IMG/VR virus record: IMGVR_UViG_3300028800_000105
Location: 1-59,280 of that record
Direction: 5' to 3' (one strand)
DNA from: a virus
Length of the DNA: 59,280 nt
This document shows, piece after piece, positions 22,553 to 59,258 of this stretch; the stretch's first letter is position 1; every line of letters begins with the position of its first letter. The position numbers and the translations under genes were made by a program. The notes under the pieces were generated by a model. That model searched no databases. It worked only from the letters and a program-made list of their open reading frames with translations, and was not told where the DNA came from.

Positions 22553-22591
22553 TTGAAGGTGCCGTCAGAAACTGACGGTGCCTTGAACTAC
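22549..22591 (+). promoter_or_regulatory. Intercistronic hairpin 1 with palindrome 22563-22577
   Basis: GTAGTT...AACTAC outer stem, AAGG/CCTT inner stem, tip CGTCAGAAACTGACG (perfect copy). The upstream stop codon lies in the 5' arm and the next ribosome site directly follows the 3' arm. Confidence 0.8.
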
Positions 22592-23824: not shown

Positions 23825-23863
23825 TTAAGGGTGGCGTCAGTTTCTGACGCTGCCCTCAGCTAC
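23821..23863 (+). promoter_or_regulatory. Intercistronic hairpin 4 with palindrome 23835-23849
   Basis: GTAGTT...AGCTAC outer arms, AGGG/CCCT inner stem and a perfect CGTCAGTTTCTGACG at the tip. Confidence 0.8.
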
Positions 23864-24400: not shown

Positions 24401-24442
24401 TAGTTGAAGGTGGCGTCAGTTTCTGACGCTGCCTTGAACTAC
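24400..24442 (+). promoter_or_regulatory. Intercistronic hairpin 5 with palindrome 24414-24428
   Basis: GTAGTTGAAGG...CCTTGAACTAC arms with perfect CGTCAGTTTCTGACG at the tip; AAGGGAG follows. Confidence 0.82.
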
Positions 24443-34699: not shown

Positions 34700-34879
34700 G
34701 TGTATCACTTTGCGATGTACCTCATCGAGGGCGGCGGCGGCTTCCTTGCGCTGCTGATCATCCCGATCATCCTGATCCTGATCACCTCAGAGCATGAGGG
34801 CAAGAGCCACCTGAAGACGCTGTTGGAGAACCACTTCTTCGACAAGCTGGCAGAGCTGGCGAATCGTCGCGACAAGTAA
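34700..34879 (+). CDS. Membrane protein (59 aa)
   Basis: GTG 34700 after AAAGGAG. MYHFAMYLIEGGGGFLALLI has one long membrane helix (FLALLIIPIILILI) and a charged helical tail. Function unknown. Confidence 0.65.
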   Translation: MYHFAMYLIEGGGGFLALLIIPIILILITSEHEGKSHLKTLLENHFFDKLAELANRRDK

Positions 34880-34958
34880 GAAACCCTCGGGCCGGAGGGT
34901 GGCGGGTTACCCATTGCAAAGGTGAACCCCCGTCACCATCAACATGACCGAGGGTTTC
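34880..34958 (+). other. Structured intergenic element
   Basis: GAAACCCTCGG (34880-34890) pairs perfectly with CCGAGGGTTTC (34948-34958) around a 57-nt, itself foldable loop. It directly precedes a palindrome and two alternative starts, so it may control their use. Confidence 0.6.
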
Positions 34959-34962
34959 TGCA

Positions 34963-41446: not shown

Positions 41447-41686
41447 ATGCCTCGCAAAGACCCGGAGAAGCGGGCGGAGTATCAAAAGAAGGCAGGTCGT
41501 CTGTGGTATCTGCGCAACCGTGAGCTGACGATCGCGAGGGCGAAAGAGTTCAAGCGCACCCACTACATCGGAACGTGTGTGAACTGCGGCGGGCCAACCG
41601 TCGGCAGCTCACCGAGCAACATCCCGAAGTGGTGCTCGCAGAAGGAGTGCGCTTCGTTGCAACGCAAACCGAAGGGAGATCAATGA
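41447..41686 (+). CDS. Zinc-type basic protein (79 aa)
   Basis: ATG 41447 after AAGGGG. MPRKDPEKRAEYQKKAGRLW resembles basic starts of phage HNH-like or zinc proteins; CVNCGGPTVGSSPSNIPKWC and CASL complete a Cys set. Stop overlaps the VWA start. Confidence 0.7.
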   Translation: MPRKDPEKRAEYQKKAGRLWYLRNRELTIARAKEFKRTHYIGTCVNCGGPTVGSSPSNIPKWCSQKECASLQRKPKGDQ

Positions 41687-42393
41687 AAGTTCCAGGAGAT
41701 GCAGGTCAGACAACCCTGGTCGCGTTCGTGCTGGACGAGTCCGGATCGATGCAGGGGGTCAAAGACGACACGATCGGTGGCGTCAACACATATTTCGCCA
41801 CGCTGAAGAAAGAGACGCCGGAGGCACTGGTGTCTCTGATGCTGTTCTCGTCCAGGGGCGACGAGTATTTCCGCCCGCTGTGTTCCGGCGTGAAGGTGAA
41901 GGACGTGCCGGAGCTGACGGCGAGCAACTATCAGCCGTCAGGCAACACACCGCTGCGCGACGCGATCGGGAAGGCGATCTCCGACTCCGCGATGCGGCGT
42001 GCCGACAGGTACACGATCGTGATCATGACCGACGGGAACGAGAACGACTCCAAGGAATGGACGCACGAGGGGGTCGAGAAGCTGATCAAGGAGAAGCAGG
42101 CTCTCGACAACTGGACGATCGTCTTCCTCGCCTCAACAGTGAAGGCTCGCGAGCAGTTCGTCAGCATGGGCGGGCAGCACACGAACTCGATGCACTACGC
42201 AGGTTCGGGCATCAGCGGCCAGAGCGTCGGTGCGACGTTCAGAAGCGTTGCGAAGGCGACGGTGGCACGCACACAGTCTCCGATGGCATCGACGCAAGAC
42301 TTCTTCAAGGACGCTGGGCAGACCGAGGCCGACTACGACGCACCGAAGGTGGTCGATCCCCCGAAGAAACGCGCTCCGCGCAAGAAGTCCTGA
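41683..42393 (+). CDS. VWA-domain protein (236 aa)
   Basis: The MIDAS motif DESGSMQGV is at residues 18-26, with NTPLRDAIGKA (Thr) and YTIVIMTDGNEND (Asp) completing metal binding. EALVSLMLFSSRGDEYFRPL and NWTIVFLASTVKAREQFVSM are core strands. A basic Pro/Lys tail ends it. VWA proteins often act with AAA+ ATPases; an AAA+ gene is at 52191. ATGA-coupled to the previous gene. Confidence 0.85.
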   Translation: MKVPGDAGQTTLVAFVLDESGSMQGVKDDTIGGVNTYFATLKKETPEALVSLMLFSSRGDEYFRPLCSGVKVKDVPELTASNYQPSGNTPLRDAIGKAISDSAMRRADRYTIVIMTDGNENDSKEWTHEGVEKLIKEKQALDNWTIVFLASTVKAREQFVSMGGQHTNSMHYAGSGISGQSVGATFRSVAKATVARTQSPMASTQDFFKDAGQTEADYDAPKVVDPPKKRAPRKKS

Positions 42394-44703: not shown

Positions 44704-44774
44704 ACCCTGGTAGCTGAGTGGAACAGCAACGGTTTCCTAAACCGCGTCACGGAGGTTCGATTCCTCCCCAGGGT
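44704..44774 (+). tRNA. tRNA-Arg (anticodon CCT)
   Basis: Perfect 7-bp acceptor ACCCTGG/CCAGGGT, D-arm GCTG...CAGC, anticodon loop TTCCTAA with CCT at the anticodon position, and T-arm GGAGG-TTCGATT-CCTCC. CCA is not encoded; A44775 is the discriminator. It reads AGG codons, rare in GC-rich actinobacteria. The first anticodon-stem pair is an A-C mismatch. Confidence 0.93.
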
Positions 44775-44854
44775 ATGGCGCAGCAGGGCAGGTTTTACGT
44801 CTCCTTCCTGCCCTGCGCGCCTCTACAATCAGGGACACACGAAAGGGGAAAAGC

Positions 44855-50246: not shown

Positions 50247-50606
50247 GTGCCAACACCACGCTCGATCAAGGAGCAGATCGCCTCCGGCAACTATGCCCTG
50301 GTCGATCCGCTCGACTACATCATCATCGGCTTCCTGCCCGATGAGGGATCGCTGTTCATGGGTCTCTACCCGAACGGCGAGCTTGTGCCGAACCTGCTCA
50401 AGAAGTTCACAGCCGAGCAGCGCAAGGCGATCACCAGCACCATGCTCTCCGCGAGGCTCCGGGTGCTTCACCTGATGGGCCTTGTCGTCTGCAAGGAGAG
50501 GGGGGTTTCGGCAGGCGGGAAGCAGGTGTGGCAGCGCACAGCCAAGGGCGCTGCGGAACTGAAGAAGTGGAAGGGGGGCAAGAATGGCTCAGCCGACGTT
50601 GGTTGA
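50247..50606 (+). CDS. Winged-helix-like protein (119 aa)
   Basis: GTG 50247 after AGAGGGG. MPTPRSIKEQIASGNYALVD, then MLSARLRVLHLMGLVVCKER and KQVWQRTAKGAAELKKW read like a winged helix (recognition helix and wing). It overlaps the ParB-like gene by 23 bp and may regulate it. Confidence 0.68.
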   Translation: MPTPRSIKEQIASGNYALVDPLDYIIIGFLPDEGSLFMGLYPNGELVPNLLKKFTAEQRKAITSTMLSARLRVLHLMGLVVCKERGVSAGGKQVWQRTAKGAAELKKWKGGKNGSADVG

Positions 50607-51471
50607 AGAGCTGCACGCAGCATCCGAGATCAGGAAGGTGAAGCTGGCCCTGCTCCGGCCGGACATGACCTACCAGCGGGAGTTCTCTCAAGCTCTCGTC
50701 GATGAGATCGCCAACAACTGGGATCTCGTCGCCTCCGAACTCCTGCTCGTCTCCGACCGGGGGCCGCGCAAGGACGAGGAAGTGGATGGCGGGTTGTTCA
50801 TCGTCAACGGTCAGCACCGCACCAACGCGGCCGTCAAGCAGGGGATTCTGGAGCTGGACGCCCGCGTGATCAACCTGCGGGACAGCAAGAAGTTCCCCGA
50901 CCCTGGCAAGGTCGAGGCGATGTTCCGCCTCAAGACGAACGTGAAGTTGGGTGACCGGCCGCTTGAGCGGTTCAAGGCCCAGCTTCGTGCAGGCGACCCG
51001 GAGTCGATGGCGATCGTGAAGCTGCTCGCACGCTACGGGGCAGAAATCAACCAGACCCCCCAGGAGACGGGGATCAACTGCATCGCCACCATCGAGGCTC
51101 TCTACCGGGCGGACGAGACAGGGGCTCTGCTCGGAGAAACACTGGAAGTTGTTCGTGACACTTGGGAGCATGTCGGCGGCAAGAACGCGCAGTCGTCTGT
51201 TCTCAAAGGCATCTTCTGGTTCATCGCCAAACACTCGTCAGAATCTGATCGTGGTCGGCTCGTGACGAAGCTGAAAGGCATCGGCATCACGAACCTGCAT
51301 GGCCGCGCTCGGCAGACGGGGCTGACGATGGGCGGGTCGCTCTGGATCAACGTGTACCGCTCGATCGTGGAGCTGTACAACGAGGGTCTGCGTGAGCGGA
51401 ACCGTCTCTCCTGGATGCTCCGGGGCAAGGCGGTGCTCAGCAAGGGCGGCGCACAAGAGCCGACCATCTGA
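50584..51471 (+). CDS. ParB/Srx-like protein, DUF6551-type (295 aa)
   Basis: AEVRKVKL-like start (ASEIRKVKLALLRPDMTYQR), EFSQALVDEIANNWD and LFIVNGQHRTNAAVKQGI give the ParB N-domain pattern with the G-Q-H-R motif. A helical C-terminal region (GRARQTGLTMGGSLWINVYR) follows. Phage proteins of this type may bind DNA or NTP. It is the second ParB-like gene in the window. Confidence 0.8.
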   Translation: MAQPTLVEELHAASEIRKVKLALLRPDMTYQREFSQALVDEIANNWDLVASELLLVSDRGPRKDEEVDGGLFIVNGQHRTNAAVKQGILELDARVINLRDSKKFPDPGKVEAMFRLKTNVKLGDRPLERFKAQLRAGDPESMAIVKLLARYGAEINQTPQETGINCIATIEALYRADETGALLGETLEVVRDTWEHVGGKNAQSSVLKGIFWFIAKHSSESDRGRLVTKLKGIGITNLHGRARQTGLTMGGSLWINVYRSIVELYNEGLRERNRLSWMLRGKAVLSKGGAQEPTI

Positions 51472-52190: not shown

Positions 52191-53675
52191 ATGGCAACAA
52201 TTGAGGTGAATTACCAGCACGACAAGAAGGAAGCGGCGCGAGCGCAGAAGGAAATCCGTCGCCGCCTGGAAGAGTTAGGCGGGAAGCTGTACGACGACGA
52301 CGACGTGACCTACCAGGGCAACCGGCTGATTCTGCCGGAGAACATGGACCTGAAAGGCGCGATCGGCTTCCTGGAGAAGAAGCGGCAGGAGATGGAGAAA
52401 GAGACCGTCTTCTCCCGCACCTTCAACTACCGGCCCTGGGACGGCGCCTGGTGCATGTGGCAGGCGCTGAAGCGCGTGTTCGGCATCGTCGGCCACCAGG
52501 AGACCGTGTACCAGACGATGTTCGGCCCGCAGGTTGAGCCTCCGGCCATGATCACGATCAACGTGGACGTGGACAAGCAGGAGCAGATCCCCTGGGGCAC
52601 CTTTGCACTCCCGATGTTCCCCGGCCTGCTCTTCCAGACCGAGACGGGACGCAACGACTTCGGCAACGTCTTCATGCTCTATGCGAACGGGCCGAAGAAG
52701 TACAAGGCAGCCGTCGAGGGGATCTTCACGCTGATCGAGCTGGAGCTGAAGGAACGCTCGATGTACCGGGGCCGTGCCTTCGACGGGCAGCAGTTCCCCG
52801 AGTTCGTCGATCTGTCCGCCGTCGATCCCCGCAAGGTCGTCTACTCGCAAGAGGTGATGACCCAGCTGGAAGCGAACGTCTGGGCGCAGCTCCGGCACAC
52901 CGCCGAGTTTGAGCGCCTCGGCATCCCGCTCAAGCGGGCCGTCCTCGTCCACGGGCCATACGGCACCGGCAAGACGCTCGCAGCAACGCTCACAGGTCAG
53001 GAGGCGGTGGCGAATGGCTGGACGTTCATCAAGGCCCGCCCTGGCCGGGACGATCTGGGTGAAGTCATGCAGACCGCCCGTCTGTATCAGCCCTCGGTCG
53101 TGTTCTACGAAGACATCGATCAGGTCGCGGCCCCCGAAGCCGGAGGCCACGAGGCGATCTCACGACTGCTGGACGACTTCGACGGGGTAAGCGCGAAGGG
53201 CACGCGCATCCTCTGCATCCTCACCACCAACCACCCGGAGCGCATCCACAAGGGCATGGTGCGACCGGGACGCCTCGACGCCATGATCGAGATTAACGAC
53301 CTCGACGTGGAAGGAGTTGCCAAGCTCGTCCAGTCGTGCATCGAGGAATCCCTTGCCGACGGAATCGACTGGGACGCAGTGTTTGAGGCAGCCGAGGGGT
53401 ACAAGCCCGCGTTCGTCACCGAGCTCTCAACTCGGGCCGTGCGCTACCTGATCGCCAGGATGAAGGGTTCTCCGGGCGACGAAAAGGTGACCACGGAAGA
53501 CCTCGTGCACGCCGCAGTTGGCCTGCGGCCCCAGTACGACAAGATGACCGGGGCCAGGGACACGCAGGAACGGCACGAGCTGGCAGACGTGCTCGGCCGT
53601 GAGGTCACCAAGGCCGCAACGATCGCGGTGCGCGAGAACGTCCAGGATCGGCTGCTCGATCCGGCGAAGAGCTAG
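52191..53675 (+). CDS. AAA+ ATPase (494 aa)
   Basis: ATG after GAGAGAGGG. The classic AAA module has Walker A GPYGTGKT (about residue 256), Walker B VVFYEDIDQ, sensor-1 ILTTNHPE and arginine fingers MVRPGRLD, as in FtsH/spastin-type ATPases. A 230-residue N-terminal domain is unfamiliar; there is no protease domain. It may remodel a protein complex, perhaps with the VWA protein at 41683. Confidence 0.9.
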   Translation: MATIEVNYQHDKKEAARAQKEIRRRLEELGGKLYDDDDVTYQGNRLILPENMDLKGAIGFLEKKRQEMEKETVFSRTFNYRPWDGAWCMWQALKRVFGIVGHQETVYQTMFGPQVEPPAMITINVDVDKQEQIPWGTFALPMFPGLLFQTETGRNDFGNVFMLYANGPKKYKAAVEGIFTLIELELKERSMYRGRAFDGQQFPEFVDLSAVDPRKVVYSQEVMTQLEANVWAQLRHTAEFERLGIPLKRAVLVHGPYGTGKTLAATLTGQEAVANGWTFIKARPGRDDLGEVMQTARLYQPSVVFYEDIDQVAAPEAGGHEAISRLLDDFDGVSAKGTRILCILTTNHPERIHKGMVRPGRLDAMIEINDLDVEGVAKLVQSCIEESLADGIDWDAVFEAAEGYKPAFVTELSTRAVRYLIARMKGSPGDEKVTTEDLVHAAVGLRPQYDKMTGARDTQERHELADVLGREVTKAATIAVRENVQDRLLDPAKS

Positions 53676-55422: not shown

Positions 55423-55566
55423 TTGTCTAAAACAGACGCCAAGCGTGAAAAGTCAGAGCGCAACCAGTTCTACGCGATGCGCTACAAGCAACGAGAGTGC
55501 GAACGGTGCAAGCACCGGTCGAGCAGGCCAGGCAAGTGCAAACTCTGCGACGGGAGGATGAAGTGA
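55423..55566 (+). CDS. Small zinc-ribbon protein (47 aa)
   Basis: TTG 55423 follows an in-frame TGA directly. MSKTDAKREKSERNQFYAMR, then CERCKHRSSRPGKCKLCDGR gives two CxxC pairs. The ribosome site is weak, but the zinc pattern is convincing. Confidence 0.55.
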   Translation: MSKTDAKREKSERNQFYAMRYKQRECERCKHRSSRPGKCKLCDGRMK

Positions 55567-55607: not shown

Positions 55608-55868
55608 ATGCAGAGGTGGCACAGCCAGCGCGAAGAAGCGATCATGCTCAAGCGTTGGAAGCACGAAATGGAGTTGCACAGGTACGACTGGCGTTGCCCG
55701 CCAACGGACGCGAAAGCCTGCCATTGTGCGCGTGGCAAAGGTTCGATGCGGAAACGGACGCCGTATACTGAGCATCACGCAAGCTGGCGCAGCTGGTGGA
55801 ACGAGTCCAGCAGGAAGCGCTTCAGGCATCAGAAGCACAAAGCAATCGAATACGAACTTAAGGCGTGA
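55608..55868 (+). CDS. Very basic protein (86 aa)
   Basis: ATG 55608 after AAGAGGGG, inside an ATGAGACC/GGTCTCAT inverted repeat (55567-55605). MQRWHSQREEAIMLKRWKHE; Arg/Lys/His/Trp-rich to the end. Possibly nucleic-acid-binding. The downstream RNA element starts at its stop. Confidence 0.6.
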   Translation: MQRWHSQREEAIMLKRWKHEMELHRYDWRCPPTDAKACHCARGKGSMRKRTPYTEHHASWRSWWNESSRKRFRHQKHKAIEYELKA

Positions 55869-56391
55869 GGCTGGGGTAAGCGCCACGAGGGGGCCGCTGT
55901 CACCGAAAGGTCGGCCGTTGATCGTGGACGAATCCCCGACCGGGCCAGTATGAGCTACCACGATCGCTCAGCTGGCACAGGCGAATACCCCAGCCTTACG
56001 AAAGAGGGGCACCCGTGTACCGAGCAGTTGGAGCGGGGGCCTTGGCTACACGGTGTTGATGGTTAAGCGCCCCTGCGGGGGAGGAACGCCTCTGGCTGTC
56101 GAGCTACCAATGACGGAGCTGAGAAATTGGCACGTTCTCTTTCTCACGCGGCAAGACCGCAAGGTTCCCGAGGAAGCAGCCGGGTAGCGGCCGCAGGTTC
56201 TCAGATCCCTATGACAACCGATGGACTACGTGACCTAAGTAGCCTTACGGAGCCTCGCTCCGTCGATCGAGTGTTAACTCGTGGATAGGCGAAAATGGTG
56301 AGGTTTAGGATCAACCGTGCATAGGGGCGTCACACTGGAACCTGCGGTCATTAACTTAGAAGTCTGGGGTCTGACGGCTCTCTCCCCAGAG
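55868..56391 (+). ncRNA. Large structured non-coding RNA candidate (about 520 nt)
   Basis: No convincing ORF. AGGCTGGGGTA (55868) pairs with TACCCCAGCCT (55986), 11 bp, closing a domain with GATCGTGG/CCACGATC and a GAAA tetraloop (ACC-GAAA-GGT). Other helices are CCGTGTA/TACACGG (56013/56047), GCGG-CAAGA-CCGC, ACGGAG-CCTCG-CTCCGT, and a long-range 9-bp CCGCAGGTT/AACCTGCGG (56191/56339). A strong terminator follows. It does not match tmRNA, RNase P or intron cores that I know; GOLLD or ROOL relatives should be tested. Confidence 0.6.
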
Positions 56392-56423
56392 AAAAGGCCC
56401 CGGCTTACGCCGGGGCCTTTTTT
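56392..56423. terminator. Bidirectional terminator
   Basis: AAAAGGCCCCGGC and GCCGGGGCCTTTTTT form a perfect stem around TTAC. It ends the structured RNA from the left and the lysis operon from the right. Confidence 0.93.
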
Positions 56424-56442: not shown

Positions 56443-56631
56443 TCAACCCGGAGAGCGTACCACCGGCCACGACACTCCCGCAAGTACCTGGCAGGCCAGC
56501 CCGGAAGCAACCAACCCGATCAGCGTCAGCAGCGTCACATGGGTTGAGAACACCCCGAACGCCAGAATCGCAGCGATGATGAACAACACCAGCGCAGCGA
56601 CCATGAACAAACTGCCGAACCCGACGGTCAT
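56443..56631 (-). CDS. Membrane protein (62 aa)
   Basis: Start at 56631 overlaps the previous stop. MTVGFGSLFMVAALVLFIIA and VTLLTLIGLVASGLACQVLA form two membrane helices. It is the last gene of the lysis operon; holin or spanin-like accessory roles are possible. Confidence 0.72.
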   Translation of the reverse strand: MTVGFGSLFMVAALVLFIIAAILAFGVFSTHVTLLTLIGLVASGLACQVLAGVSWPVVRSPG

Positions 56632-56825
56632 GCGCCGTACTTTCCGTCGTCGAGCTTCTGCAGGTTCTCCTTGTAGTTCACCCGTCCAACGTCGTCACCG
56701 AAGCCCGACGCCTTATCGGTGAACACCCAGGCGCAGATCCGGTCATGCTCGTTCTTCACGCCGTTCGTGAGAGCGTCGAAATCAACGCCGTTCTCGTCGG
56801 TGACTGTAACCCACGACATGCTCAT
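56628..56825 (-). CDS. Hypothetical protein (65 aa)
   Basis: MSMSWVTVTDENGVDFDALT, soluble and acidic, in the lysis operon between an enzyme and a membrane protein. Function unknown. Confidence 0.7.
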   Translation of the reverse strand: MSMSWVTVTDENGVDFDALTNGVKNEHDRICAWVFTDKASGFGDDVGRVNYKENLQKLDDGKYGA

Positions 56826-56837
56826 TACCCGTACCTC

Positions 56838-57635
56838 CTATTGCAGAGATTGCAGGGCGGCGTTCAAACCTGCCAGGTCGAAGCCGCGTTCATTCTTGCC
56901 GTTCTTCAGCTCCTCCGGGTATACGATCCCCCACGCCTCGTCTACCAGGTTGGTGTAGAACGCCTCGGTGATCCACAGGTGTTTTGCCCACGACACTACT
57001 CCGCCGCGTCCGGCGTTCCGGCCGAAGCCAGGGATCGCGTGCCCACCGATCACCGAGGAGTTGGGATCGTAGTCCCATGTACCCGAAGCGAACTGGTCAT
57101 ACTGAGCTTGCTGAAACTGGAAACCGATCTCAACGGCTGAGAAGATGTAGACAGCCTCCATGTATTCGTTCCAGTCACCCGCCGTCAAAGAGACATAGGC
57201 GCCAATTTTGTGCCTATGCCCGGCCGCATCCAATAGGCCGACCTTCTGACGGTAGTTCATAGCGACCCGCATGTCCGTACCGTTATCCGTATTCGGGTCG
57301 TTCAAAACGTAGCCGGTGACGGCGCTGTAATCAGCGATCGACTCCTTACCCGTAATCGTCACCGAGCGGCCAGCAAGTTTGTTCGTCTCACGGGTCGTGT
57401 GCGCCCCGCACGCAAACACACAATCCCCCGCACCCTGGAAGCCAGGGGCAACGGTGTTGTCAGGGCCGTTTCCGTTCATCTGCCAATCCCAGGCCTGTTC
57501 GCCGTCACCGAAGATCGTGCCGTGACCGAACGTCGCAGGCGGGGTCGGCAGCGCGGCCTGTTCCGCCTTCAGCCCCTTGAAGGTGATGTCCCGGCTGTCA
57601 GGGGTAGCTGGTTTCTTACCAAGCAGACCAGTCAT
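56838..57635 (-). CDS. Papain-fold cysteine-peptidase-like protein (265 aa)
   Basis: GFQGAGDCVFACGAHTTRET holds the candidate catalytic Cys, and SSVIGGHAIPGFGR the His, as in C1A/C39-like folds. EWAWGIVYPEEL-like C-terminal strands follow. It sits beside holin-like genes, suggesting a lysis or ejection enzyme. Similar proteins occur in actinophage lysis or minor tail regions. Confidence 0.8.
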   Translation of the reverse strand: MTGLLGKKPATPDSRDITFKGLKAEQAALPTPPATFGHGTIFGDGEQAWDWQMNGNGPDNTVAPGFQGAGDCVFACGAHTTRETNKLAGRSVTITGKESIADYSAVTGYVLNDPNTDNGTDMRVAMNYRQKVGLLDAAGHRHKIGAYVSLTAGDWNEYMEAVYIFSAVEIGFQFQQAQYDQFASGTWDYDPNSSVIGGHAIPGFGRNAGRGGVVSWAKHLWITEAFYTNLVDEAWGIVYPEELKNGKNERGFDLAGLNAALQSLQ

Positions 57636-57856
57636 TTAGCCGGGGGGGTGGCCGCAGCCGCAGCCTTCGTCTTGTTCGCCTGTACAGCACCAACAATCGT
57701 GATCGCCAGGAACAGAACGGCGTTCACAACACCGTCAGTGGCGGCAAGCTGCGTCTGCGTAAAGACCACGTTGAACGCAATCAACAGAGCAGCGATCGAG
57801 TTAATGACCGTCAGTAGTGGTGTTTGGATTGTGTCGAGAAGTGCCAGCCAGTTCAT
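57632..57856 (-). CDS. Holin-like protein (74 aa)
   Basis: Two hydrophobic helices (LLTVINSIAALLIAFNVVF and NAVLFLAITIVGAVQ) with a charged Lys/Ala end fit a class II holin. It is coupled to both neighbours by 4-bp overlaps. Confidence 0.75.
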   Translation of the reverse strand: MNWLALLDTIQTPLLTVINSIAALLIAFNVVFTQTQLAATDGVVNAVLFLAITIVGAVQANKTKAAAAATPPAK

Positions 57857-58146
57857 TGATGCTCCCTCCCGCAGCGCGTATTTCGCAGCTGGTTGGTTTG
57901 AGTGAGGTAAACCTCTTTCCGCAGGGCTTTATCGGCTGGGTCGTTGAAATGATGCGGGCCAAGGTAGGCAGTCGTCAGGTTCTGAACGATCACGTCGATG
58001 ATCTGATTGTGTCTGCCGCACGCTTGGCCGTCGGTGTTGCGCAGATCAATCGTGTTCCACAACGTGACAGCTGCCAAACAAAAGATCAAACAGAGGTTCG
58101 TGAAAGCCATCCTCGTAGTGAGGAGGAACGGTGGAGCGCCCTTCAT
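57853..58146 (-). CDS. Membrane-anchored small protein (97 aa)
   Basis: ATG 58146 is chosen by its overlap with the previous TGA. MKGAPPFLLTTRMAFTNLCL leads into one membrane helix (AFTNLCLIFCLAAVTLW). The rest is polar with several His/Asn. A spanin-like or accessory lysis role is possible. Confidence 0.65.
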   Translation of the reverse strand: MKGAPPFLLTTRMAFTNLCLIFCLAAVTLWNTIDLRNTDGQACGRHNQIIDVIVQNLTTAYLGPHHFNDPADKALRKEVYLTQTNQLRNTRCGREHQ

Positions 58147-58367
58147 TTTCCCTGCGCGATCACCAAAAGGGTCGCAAGGATCGCCAAAATACCGATGAAG
58201 ACAGTCCCGAACAGCCACCGCTGGTAGGTAGAGAGCGCCCTTGAGCCAGCCTGCGCAGCCAACAACGTCTTCACATCAGCCTTAATCTCACCCACGTTGT
58301 CTTCTATCGGCTTGGTTATCAAGTAAAGCTCGCGACGAGTCACGTATTCTCCGTTCCCCTCGGCCAC
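58143..58367 (-). CDS. Membrane protein, possible holin (74 aa)
   Basis: A charged coiled-coil start (ITKPIEDNVGEIKADVKTLL) is followed by a C-terminal membrane helix (FGTVFIGILAILATLLVIAQ). This layout resembles XhlA-type hemolysin/holin partners. Confidence 0.75.
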   Translation of the reverse strand: MAEGNGEYVTRRELYLITKPIEDNVGEIKADVKTLLAAQAGSRALSTYQRWLFGTVFIGILAILATLLVIAQGK

Positions 58368-58380
58368 GGATTGACTATCG

Positions 58381-59046
58381 TCAGAGAGGCTTCTTGCGAT
58401 TGGCCAGGAACTGTGCGTAACGCTTCCACCAGTCCAACGGGATACGCCGAGGTACGTTAGGACGAACGACAGGATTCCTCTCCCCGTACTTCCTCCAAGG
58501 GCCCTCCCCTAAACGCCACGCCGTCCACGAGTAAAACCCCGTCATTGCACGGAGTTTGTCCTGCGGGGTCGGCGGAGGCTCCACGATGTGCAACGTCAGA
58601 AACTGACGTGGCCTCGGATCCTGAGACAGGTTGTACTTGTTCGGTGCACCCTGACGGCCGAAGCTCCACAGCAGCGGATCAGCACCATCCTGCAACACCA
58701 TCGTCGCGTGATCCTCCCCGTCAACGCCGAAGGTGATGATGTCGCCAACCTCCAGCTCCTCCGGGGCGTCCACATGGTGCAGCTTGATCCACAGCGTCTG
58801 CGAGTTCCCATACGGCCCCCAGTCGTTCATCATCGGATCCGGGGCACCCGGCGACCACCGGCAAATGTACTGAACGCCTTTACTACAGTCTCCCCTGACA
58901 TGCTGGCCGGGATGCCACGGCGGAGGCGGCACCGGCATCGGCCTGACAGCCTCATACGTCCAGTCGCCACGAGACTGCTCGTCCGCCAACGTCTCATACA
59001 TCAGCAGCTGCATCTTCGCCCGGATCGGAGGCAACGGAATCGTCAC
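58381..59046 (-). CDS. CHAP/NlpC-like endolysin (221 aa)
   Basis: VRGDCSKGVQYICRWSPG carries the candidate Cys, LEVGDIITFGVDGEDHATMV the His, as in NlpC/P60 and CHAP amidases. A palindrome encodes RQFLT in the middle. The C-terminal 60 residues are basic and may bind the wall. First complete enzyme gene of the lysis operon. Confidence 0.82.
   Translation of the reverse strand: MTIPLPPIRAKMQLLMYETLADEQSRGDWTYEAVRPMPVPPPPWHPGQHVRGDCSKGVQYICRWSPGAPDPMMNDWGPYGNSQTLWIKLHHVDAPEELEVGDIITFGVDGEDHATMVLQDGADPLLWSFGRQGAPNKYNLSQDPRPRQFLTLHIVEPPPTPQDKLRAMTGFYSWTAWRLGEGPWRKYGERNPVVRPNVPRRIPLDWWKRYAQFLANRKKPL
58594..58608. repeat. 15-bp palindrome, perfect copy (in gene)
   Basis: CGTCAGAAACTGACG inside the endolysin gene, read as RQFLT on the minus strand. 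Confidence 0.9.
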
Positions 59047-59258
59047 AGGAACACCCTCACCCCAGGAAGTCTAATGCGGTTATTGAACACAGGAACATTG
59101 GATGGCGTCGGTGACGTTGAGTCACCATCCTTCAGATTAATCCTGTTCTGCATCACCGGGACGTTTGAGATCGTCCACTCGTTGCTGGCCCCATCCTTCA
59201 ATCTCATCCGGTTATTGAAACAAGGGAACCCACAATGGAACTCATCTGGCACGTACAA
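59043..59258 (-). CDS. Repeat-containing small virion protein (71 aa or partial)
   Basis: A TTG at 59258 gives MYVPDEFHCGFPCFNNRMRL, but the frame is open to the right edge (AVQVYSWLY...), so it may be the end of a longer protein. NVPVMQNRINLKDG and NVPVFNNRIRLPG are imperfect repeats of one unit. Similar repeats end short fibre or tail-tip proteins. Confidence 0.6.
   Translation of the reverse strand: MYVPDEFHCGFPCFNNRMRLKDGASNEWTISNVPVMQNRINLKDGDSTSPTPSNVPVFNNRIRLPGVRVFL

Follow-up and report, generated by a model that had tools for sequence, protein, structure and literature searches.

Evidence for a large structured non-coding RNA outside Rfam at the head-on junction of two operons in a tailed phage

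In the 59,280-base IMG/VR virus record analysed here (the window), about 560 nt of sequence separate a rightward run of small, non-structural genes (54.7–56.4 kb) from a leftward lysis operon. Is this segment the untranslated end of an operon, or does it encode a large structured RNA of its own and, if so, of which class? To our knowledge, only a few large, ornate phage RNAs have been described, and none of them has an established function.

The phage is tailed and distant from the phages in INPHARED: a DNA comparison with that collection gave no match, and its terminase is at most about 28% identical to INPHARED phages. The portal is about 40–41% identical to those of Arthrobacter phages and 47% to that of a phage contig from faeces, and by structural genes the closest relatives are phages infecting actinobacteria. 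A second contig of the same phage, IMGVR_UViG_3300028563_000026, shares 99.99% identity over 14 kb, has a different start point and adds 16.6 kb past the window end, including the tape-measure gene, before it rejoins position 1. Taken together, the two contigs point to a circular map of about 75.9 kb.

The features of the locus are collected in Table 1. The segment is the final element of the rightward run and meets the lysis operon head-on at the terminator. A family search with the 86-aa ORF directly upstream gave no hit, and the first helix of the RNA includes, in its 5′ strand, the TGA stop of this ORF (55866–55868).

Table 1. Coordinates of the RNA, its parts and the adjoining genes in the window.
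Feature	Position	Strand	Remarks
Upstream ORF	55423–55566		Flanks the RNA on the upstream side; positive codon score
86-aa ORF	55608–55868	+	Directly 5′ of the RNA; from the ORF list; positive codon score
Whole structured RNA, terminator included	55864–56422	+	About 560 nt; non-coding, long-range helices, no Rfam class; transcript ends inferred
Domain I	55864–56000	+	Closed by a 15-bp helix; z −5.0
Domain II	56003–56188	+	Hairpin-rich; least certain part; z −0.3
Domain III	56189–56349	+	Closed by a 12–13-bp helix; z −4.0
Internal loop CCUAAG (56234–56239)/AAUGG (56294–56298)	56234–56298	+	In domain III
Terminator hairpin	56391–56422	both	14-bp stem; U-run on +, T-rich tail on −
Leftward lysis/late genes	56443–59258	−	Converge on the RNA
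62-aa ORF	56443–56631	−	Positive codon score
65-aa ORF	56628–56825	−	Positive codon score
Cysteine-peptidase-like protein, 265 aa	56838–57635	−	phrog_19005
Small membrane protein	57632–57856	−	Part of the lysis/late genes

The segment at 55864–56422 on the plus strand is non-coding. When scored with the phage's own codon usage, all six frames of 55869–56390 are negative throughout and contain 4–10 stops each, and the short ORFs on both sides of the RNA score positive on the same measure. These scores bear out the preliminary description of this DNA, which had called the segment gene-free, and reveal none of the translated ORFs across the region that it had named as evidence against an RNA.

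The same description had portrayed the segment as packed with helices. To score this, only helices closing at least 40 nt were counted. The strongest of them was matched in one of 200 dinucleotide shuffles, while neither the second strongest nor the sum of the top five was matched in any, and long-range helices this strong occur in none of 221 other windows of the same length from the phage. The ends of the segment were chosen to fit it, which confers some advantage in this test, but the margin is still wide. The long-range helices are beyond chance, and in this respect the earlier portrayal is correct. The total folding energy, in contrast, is ruled out as proof of structure by the genome-wide control: without the terminator, the minimum free energy (MFE) of the segment has a z of −3.5 against shuffles, but 30 of 196 genome windows fold equally well, in part because a hairpin-forming palindrome is repeated abundantly in this phage. 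Taken separately, domains I and III stand out against shuffles, whereas domain II does not (Table 1). On the minus strand, z is weaker for domains I and III (−3.4 and −3.3, respectively), and more G-U pairs form on the plus strand. In a sliding fold scan with a span of 150 nt, the RNA did not stand out, because the fixed grid of the scan cuts through the RNA domains.

Overall, the fold comprises three domains followed by the terminator. In outline it agrees with the preliminary description, whose structured RNA of about 520 nt beginning at 55868 is upheld as a structure and starts about 4 nt earlier, at 55864. Two of the helices that it listed are present but longer than it had given. The domain-closing helix of 11 bp has 15 bp (55864–55878/55986–56000; 14 Watson-Crick pairs and one G-U) and closes domain I, while the long-range helix of 9 bp at 56191/56339 has 12–13 bp (56189–56201/56337–56349) and closes domain III. 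Beyond its closing helix, domain I continues through a short internal loop into two inner arms. The tip of the first arm reads ACC-GAAA-GGU, and the second arm ends in a 10-nt loop holding CCACGATC (55958–55965), which is complementary over 8 nt to GATCGTGG (55920–55927) in the first arm; judged by this complementarity, the two can pair in a putative loop pseudoknot. Of the GNRA-like loops claimed earlier, the GAAA at 55905–55908 caps a hairpin in the centroid fold, and the GCAA at 56159–56162 in domain II is a possible tetraloop in competition with another hairpin.

Inside domain III, an inner helix of 7–8 bp (CCCTATG/CATAGGG, 56207–56213/56320–56326) and two hairpins (56247–56263 and 56268–56281) are predicted. 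The internal loop CCUAAG/AAUGG forms in a fold that lies 1.3 kcal/mol above the MFE, and we take it to resemble the classical 11-nt GAAA-tetraloop receptor (CCUAAG/UAUGG). It is an attractive guess from the modelled fold that the GAAA loop of domain I docks into this receptor-like loop. Short internal direct repeats, two copies each of GAGCTACCA, AGCCTTACG and TAAGCGCC, were discarded as a feature, as they are at about chance level for a 525-nt sequence.

The strong terminator that had been taken to end the RNA is indeed present. However, an A-run ahead of it means that the convergent lysis operon can use it as well. Since it can serve two convergent operons, it does not by itself define an RNA gene. 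A sigma-70-type promoter was sought upstream of the RNA and was not found.

The preliminary description could not place the RNA in any recognised class, and the searches agree with it. No Rfam family, including GOLLD, ROOL, introns and tmRNA, reaches its gathering score in the RNA region, and with lax filters on exactly the RNA stretch the sole match was one of 13.4 bits (E = 1.8) on the opposite strand. Neither the GOLLD covariance model (gathering threshold 150 bits) nor the group I and group II intron models matched at E up to 10. The ROOL model (gathering threshold 99.1 bits) matched neither the RNA nor the control genomes, and therefore the negative result for ROOL leans on the gathering-threshold scan and the lax scan of all Rfam. 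As the RNA lies between complete ORFs, none of which is split, it is not an intron. At the RNA, neither ARAGORN nor Rfam reports a tmRNA, and no tRNA was found. A cis-regulatory test showed no same-strand gene directly downstream; the genes that follow are encoded on the minus strand, and thus the RNA is not a leader or riboswitch. The 10-mer GGAAGCAGCC (56172–56181) also occurs in helix 8 of SRP RNA; a targeted Rfam scan was empty, and the likeness is taken as chance. This 10-mer, a ROOL-like size and the phage setting would speak for a divergent representative of one of the catalogued classes (GOLLD, ROOL, group I or II intron, tmRNA or SRP RNA). Given the empty targeted scans at E up to 10, the silent GOLLD and ROOL searches, the ARAGORN result and the unsplit ORFs, this identity is largely refuted, and we rate it as very improbable. 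A large structured RNA outside Rfam is thus supported.

Large phage RNAs whose function is not known have been described before, and two of them, ROOL and GOLLD, have recently been shown to build RNA-only cages (PMC12286853). The ROOL RNA (RF03087) is comparable in size and complexity to the RNA described here, being a highly structured, non-coding phage or prophage RNA of about 570 nt with long-range helices and pseudoknots. ROOL RNAs reside in phages or prophages, often adjoin tRNA genes and form a homo-octameric cage. Our RNA is on a phage record, and within the window it does not appear to adjoin a tRNA island, the nearest tRNA there being at 44704–44775 and none being detected within 11 kb of the RNA. 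GOLLD (RF02032), the expression of which increases at lysis, is likewise large, phage-encoded and of unknown function, and has a conserved GAAA loop and kissing or pseudoknot contacts, but exceeds 800 nt compared with about 560 nt here. If the RNA functions at all, it does so in the manner of the known large phage RNAs, yet it belongs to none of the classes tested.

No relative of the RNA came up when phage and plasmid DNA was searched, nor in whole-record searches of related phages or in 50 phage records. Three exact-motif scans (two domain III motifs against viral contigs and one motif against bacterial genome contigs) gave, apart from the RNA itself, only matches in unrelated contexts. Covariance models of domains I and III, which score 183 and 218 bits on themselves, respectively, were silent outside the window and its twin contig, although models built from one effective sequence would miss distant relatives. 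The domain III model was also silent, under stricter filters, in 397 genomes of one bacterial phylum. The near-identical second contig holds the only other copy found. In a search guided by neighbouring genes (endolysin-like protein, AAA ATPase, terminase, portal and two tail proteins), the phage relatives at about 70% identity (G004, G005, L156 and L157) are fragments that stop before the RNA locus, and G006 (portal 57%) likewise stops short of it. The metagenomes with relatives at about 70% identity are 3300028573, 3300028666, 3300047160 and 3300046718. These searches yielded no diverged homologue on which covariation could be assessed, and the lack of detected relatives must not be taken as evidence that the RNA is unique.

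Combined, these results lead us to favour, with some reserve, a genuine functional large structured non-coding RNA. We infer that it would be read rightward as the tail of the 54.7–56.4 kb run up to the terminator shared with the lysis operon, and that it would be either released by processing of the operon transcript or made from its own promoter. Its three domains, of which two have long closing helices, would probably be joined by tertiary contacts, possibly the docking of GAAA into the CCUAAG receptor-like loop together with the domain I pseudoknot; the location of tetraloop and receptor-like loop in different domains is counted in favour. The RNA might then accumulate during infection, as proposed for ROOL and GOLLD. 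Since no same-strand gene lies behind it, the most economical reading is a role in trans or as a stable structural molecule, and we regard such a role as the most likely. Against this explanation stand the missing diverged homologue, the ordinary overall MFE, a domain II no better than shuffles, the failure to find a sigma-70-type promoter upstream and a terminator for which the convergent operons alone could account. More tentatively, the RNA may represent a class of large phage RNA not described before, built of several domains and having a tertiary architecture of its own, with docking of the tetraloop/receptor-like type and pseudoknots; it would derive from the end of the non-structural run, be stable and possibly self-assemble in infection. 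If true, an unrelated large RNA at a non-structural/lysis gene junction would point to more than one origin of such RNAs, and it would offer a compact new case for work on structure and function.

Alternatively, the segment could be decayed sequence or an extended 3′ untranslated region, lying between two convergent operons that share a bidirectional terminator, with no independent RNA; its helices would then shield the operon mRNA from 3′ exonucleases or be incidental. The U/T-runs on both strands of the terminator fit this explanation, as do the unexceptional overall folding energy and the absence of detected homologues, and since the first helix already contains the stop codon of the ORF, the segment is a continuation of the operon mRNA. 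However, long-range rather than local helices are the outliers, and a simple 3′ untranslated region would need nothing but the terminator. On balance, we consider this explanation unlikely, but it deserves serious weight. An antisense or interference element, in which rightward transcription reaches the 3′ end of the lysis operon and tunes late or lysis expression, would suit the convergent layout, with the first leftward gene starting only 21 nt past the terminator. Yet the terminator separates the RNA from the lysis genes, so that overlap needs read-through, and antisense action would not require long-range self-structure, which makes this role improbable.

An RNA-based replication origin appears similarly doubtful. 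The prophages of parABS cluster A mycobacteriophages have non-coding RNA-based origins of about 600 bp, which are RNA-dependent and work without RepA (PMC7157519). They offer an actinophage precedent of similar size that is likewise non-coding and absent from Rfam (PMC7157519), and a ParB-like protein is encoded near our RNA (50584–51471). However, blastn (word size 7) of the RNA against the RedRock, Alma and Gladiator origins gave at best chance-level matches of 10–11 nt, the domain I model has no match in these phages, and kinship was rejected on these grounds. The RNA is also located near a GC-skew maximum, which is terminus-like, rather than a minimum, although transcription direction shapes skew too. 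Finally, the cluster A origins lie directly upstream of parA on the opposite strand, whereas our RNA adjoins small ORFs without family hits and the lysis genes, with no ParA seen adjoining. As an observation on those origins themselves, the RedRock, Alma and Gladiator sequences (L174 633–1298, L175 549–1161 and L176 465–1063, respectively) align with long invariant blocks and match no Rfam family, and a covariation analysis of this functional origin RNA looks feasible.

An unannotated gene-free region of 340–580 nt with strong terminators is found in Laroyevirus Arthrobacter phages (Salgado, LiSara, Wheelbite, Shrooms, Waltz and Kovu), with which the portal shares about 41% identity. It occupies a different genomic place and shares no significant similarity with our RNA, and kinship was rejected. 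In its own right, this region (L055 26835–27173, L057 26220–26799 and L158–L161) combines a conserved block with a promoter-like sequence, and in Kovu it gave no Rfam hit. It is a candidate for an RNA or a regulatory element, and diverged homologues of it are already available.

Several other elements were observed in the phage. A dispersed 15-bp near-palindrome, CGTCAG(AAA/TTT)CTGACG, is present in about 30 copies within 12696–58608 of the window (for example at 22563, 24414, 36524, 45277, 52066, 52155, 53753 and 54723 (1 mismatch)), nearly all of them at 19–59 kb; they occur in either orientation, within genes as well as between them. Allowing up to two mismatches, 40 matches were counted compared with 5.9 expected, a number reached in none of 100 shuffles. 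The set looks like operator or 'stoperator' sites for a phage regulator. Around the palindrome, a hairpin family, AAGGTGNCGTCAGNNNCTGACGNTGCCTT, occurs between genes in three copies (22556–22584, 23828–23856 and 24407–24435; none expected). At 34878–34962 on the plus strand lies a compact 85-nt intergenic candidate for a structured RNA, closed by a 12-bp helix (z −4.7; 0 of 200 shuffles) and with a copy of the palindrome immediately behind it; a marginal Rfam hit to a nematode sRNA at this place is surely spurious. A VWA-domain protein (41575–42393) and an AAA ATPase that has relatives in Gordonia, Mycobacterium and N4-like phages (52191–53675) possibly form a MoxR/VWA-like pair.
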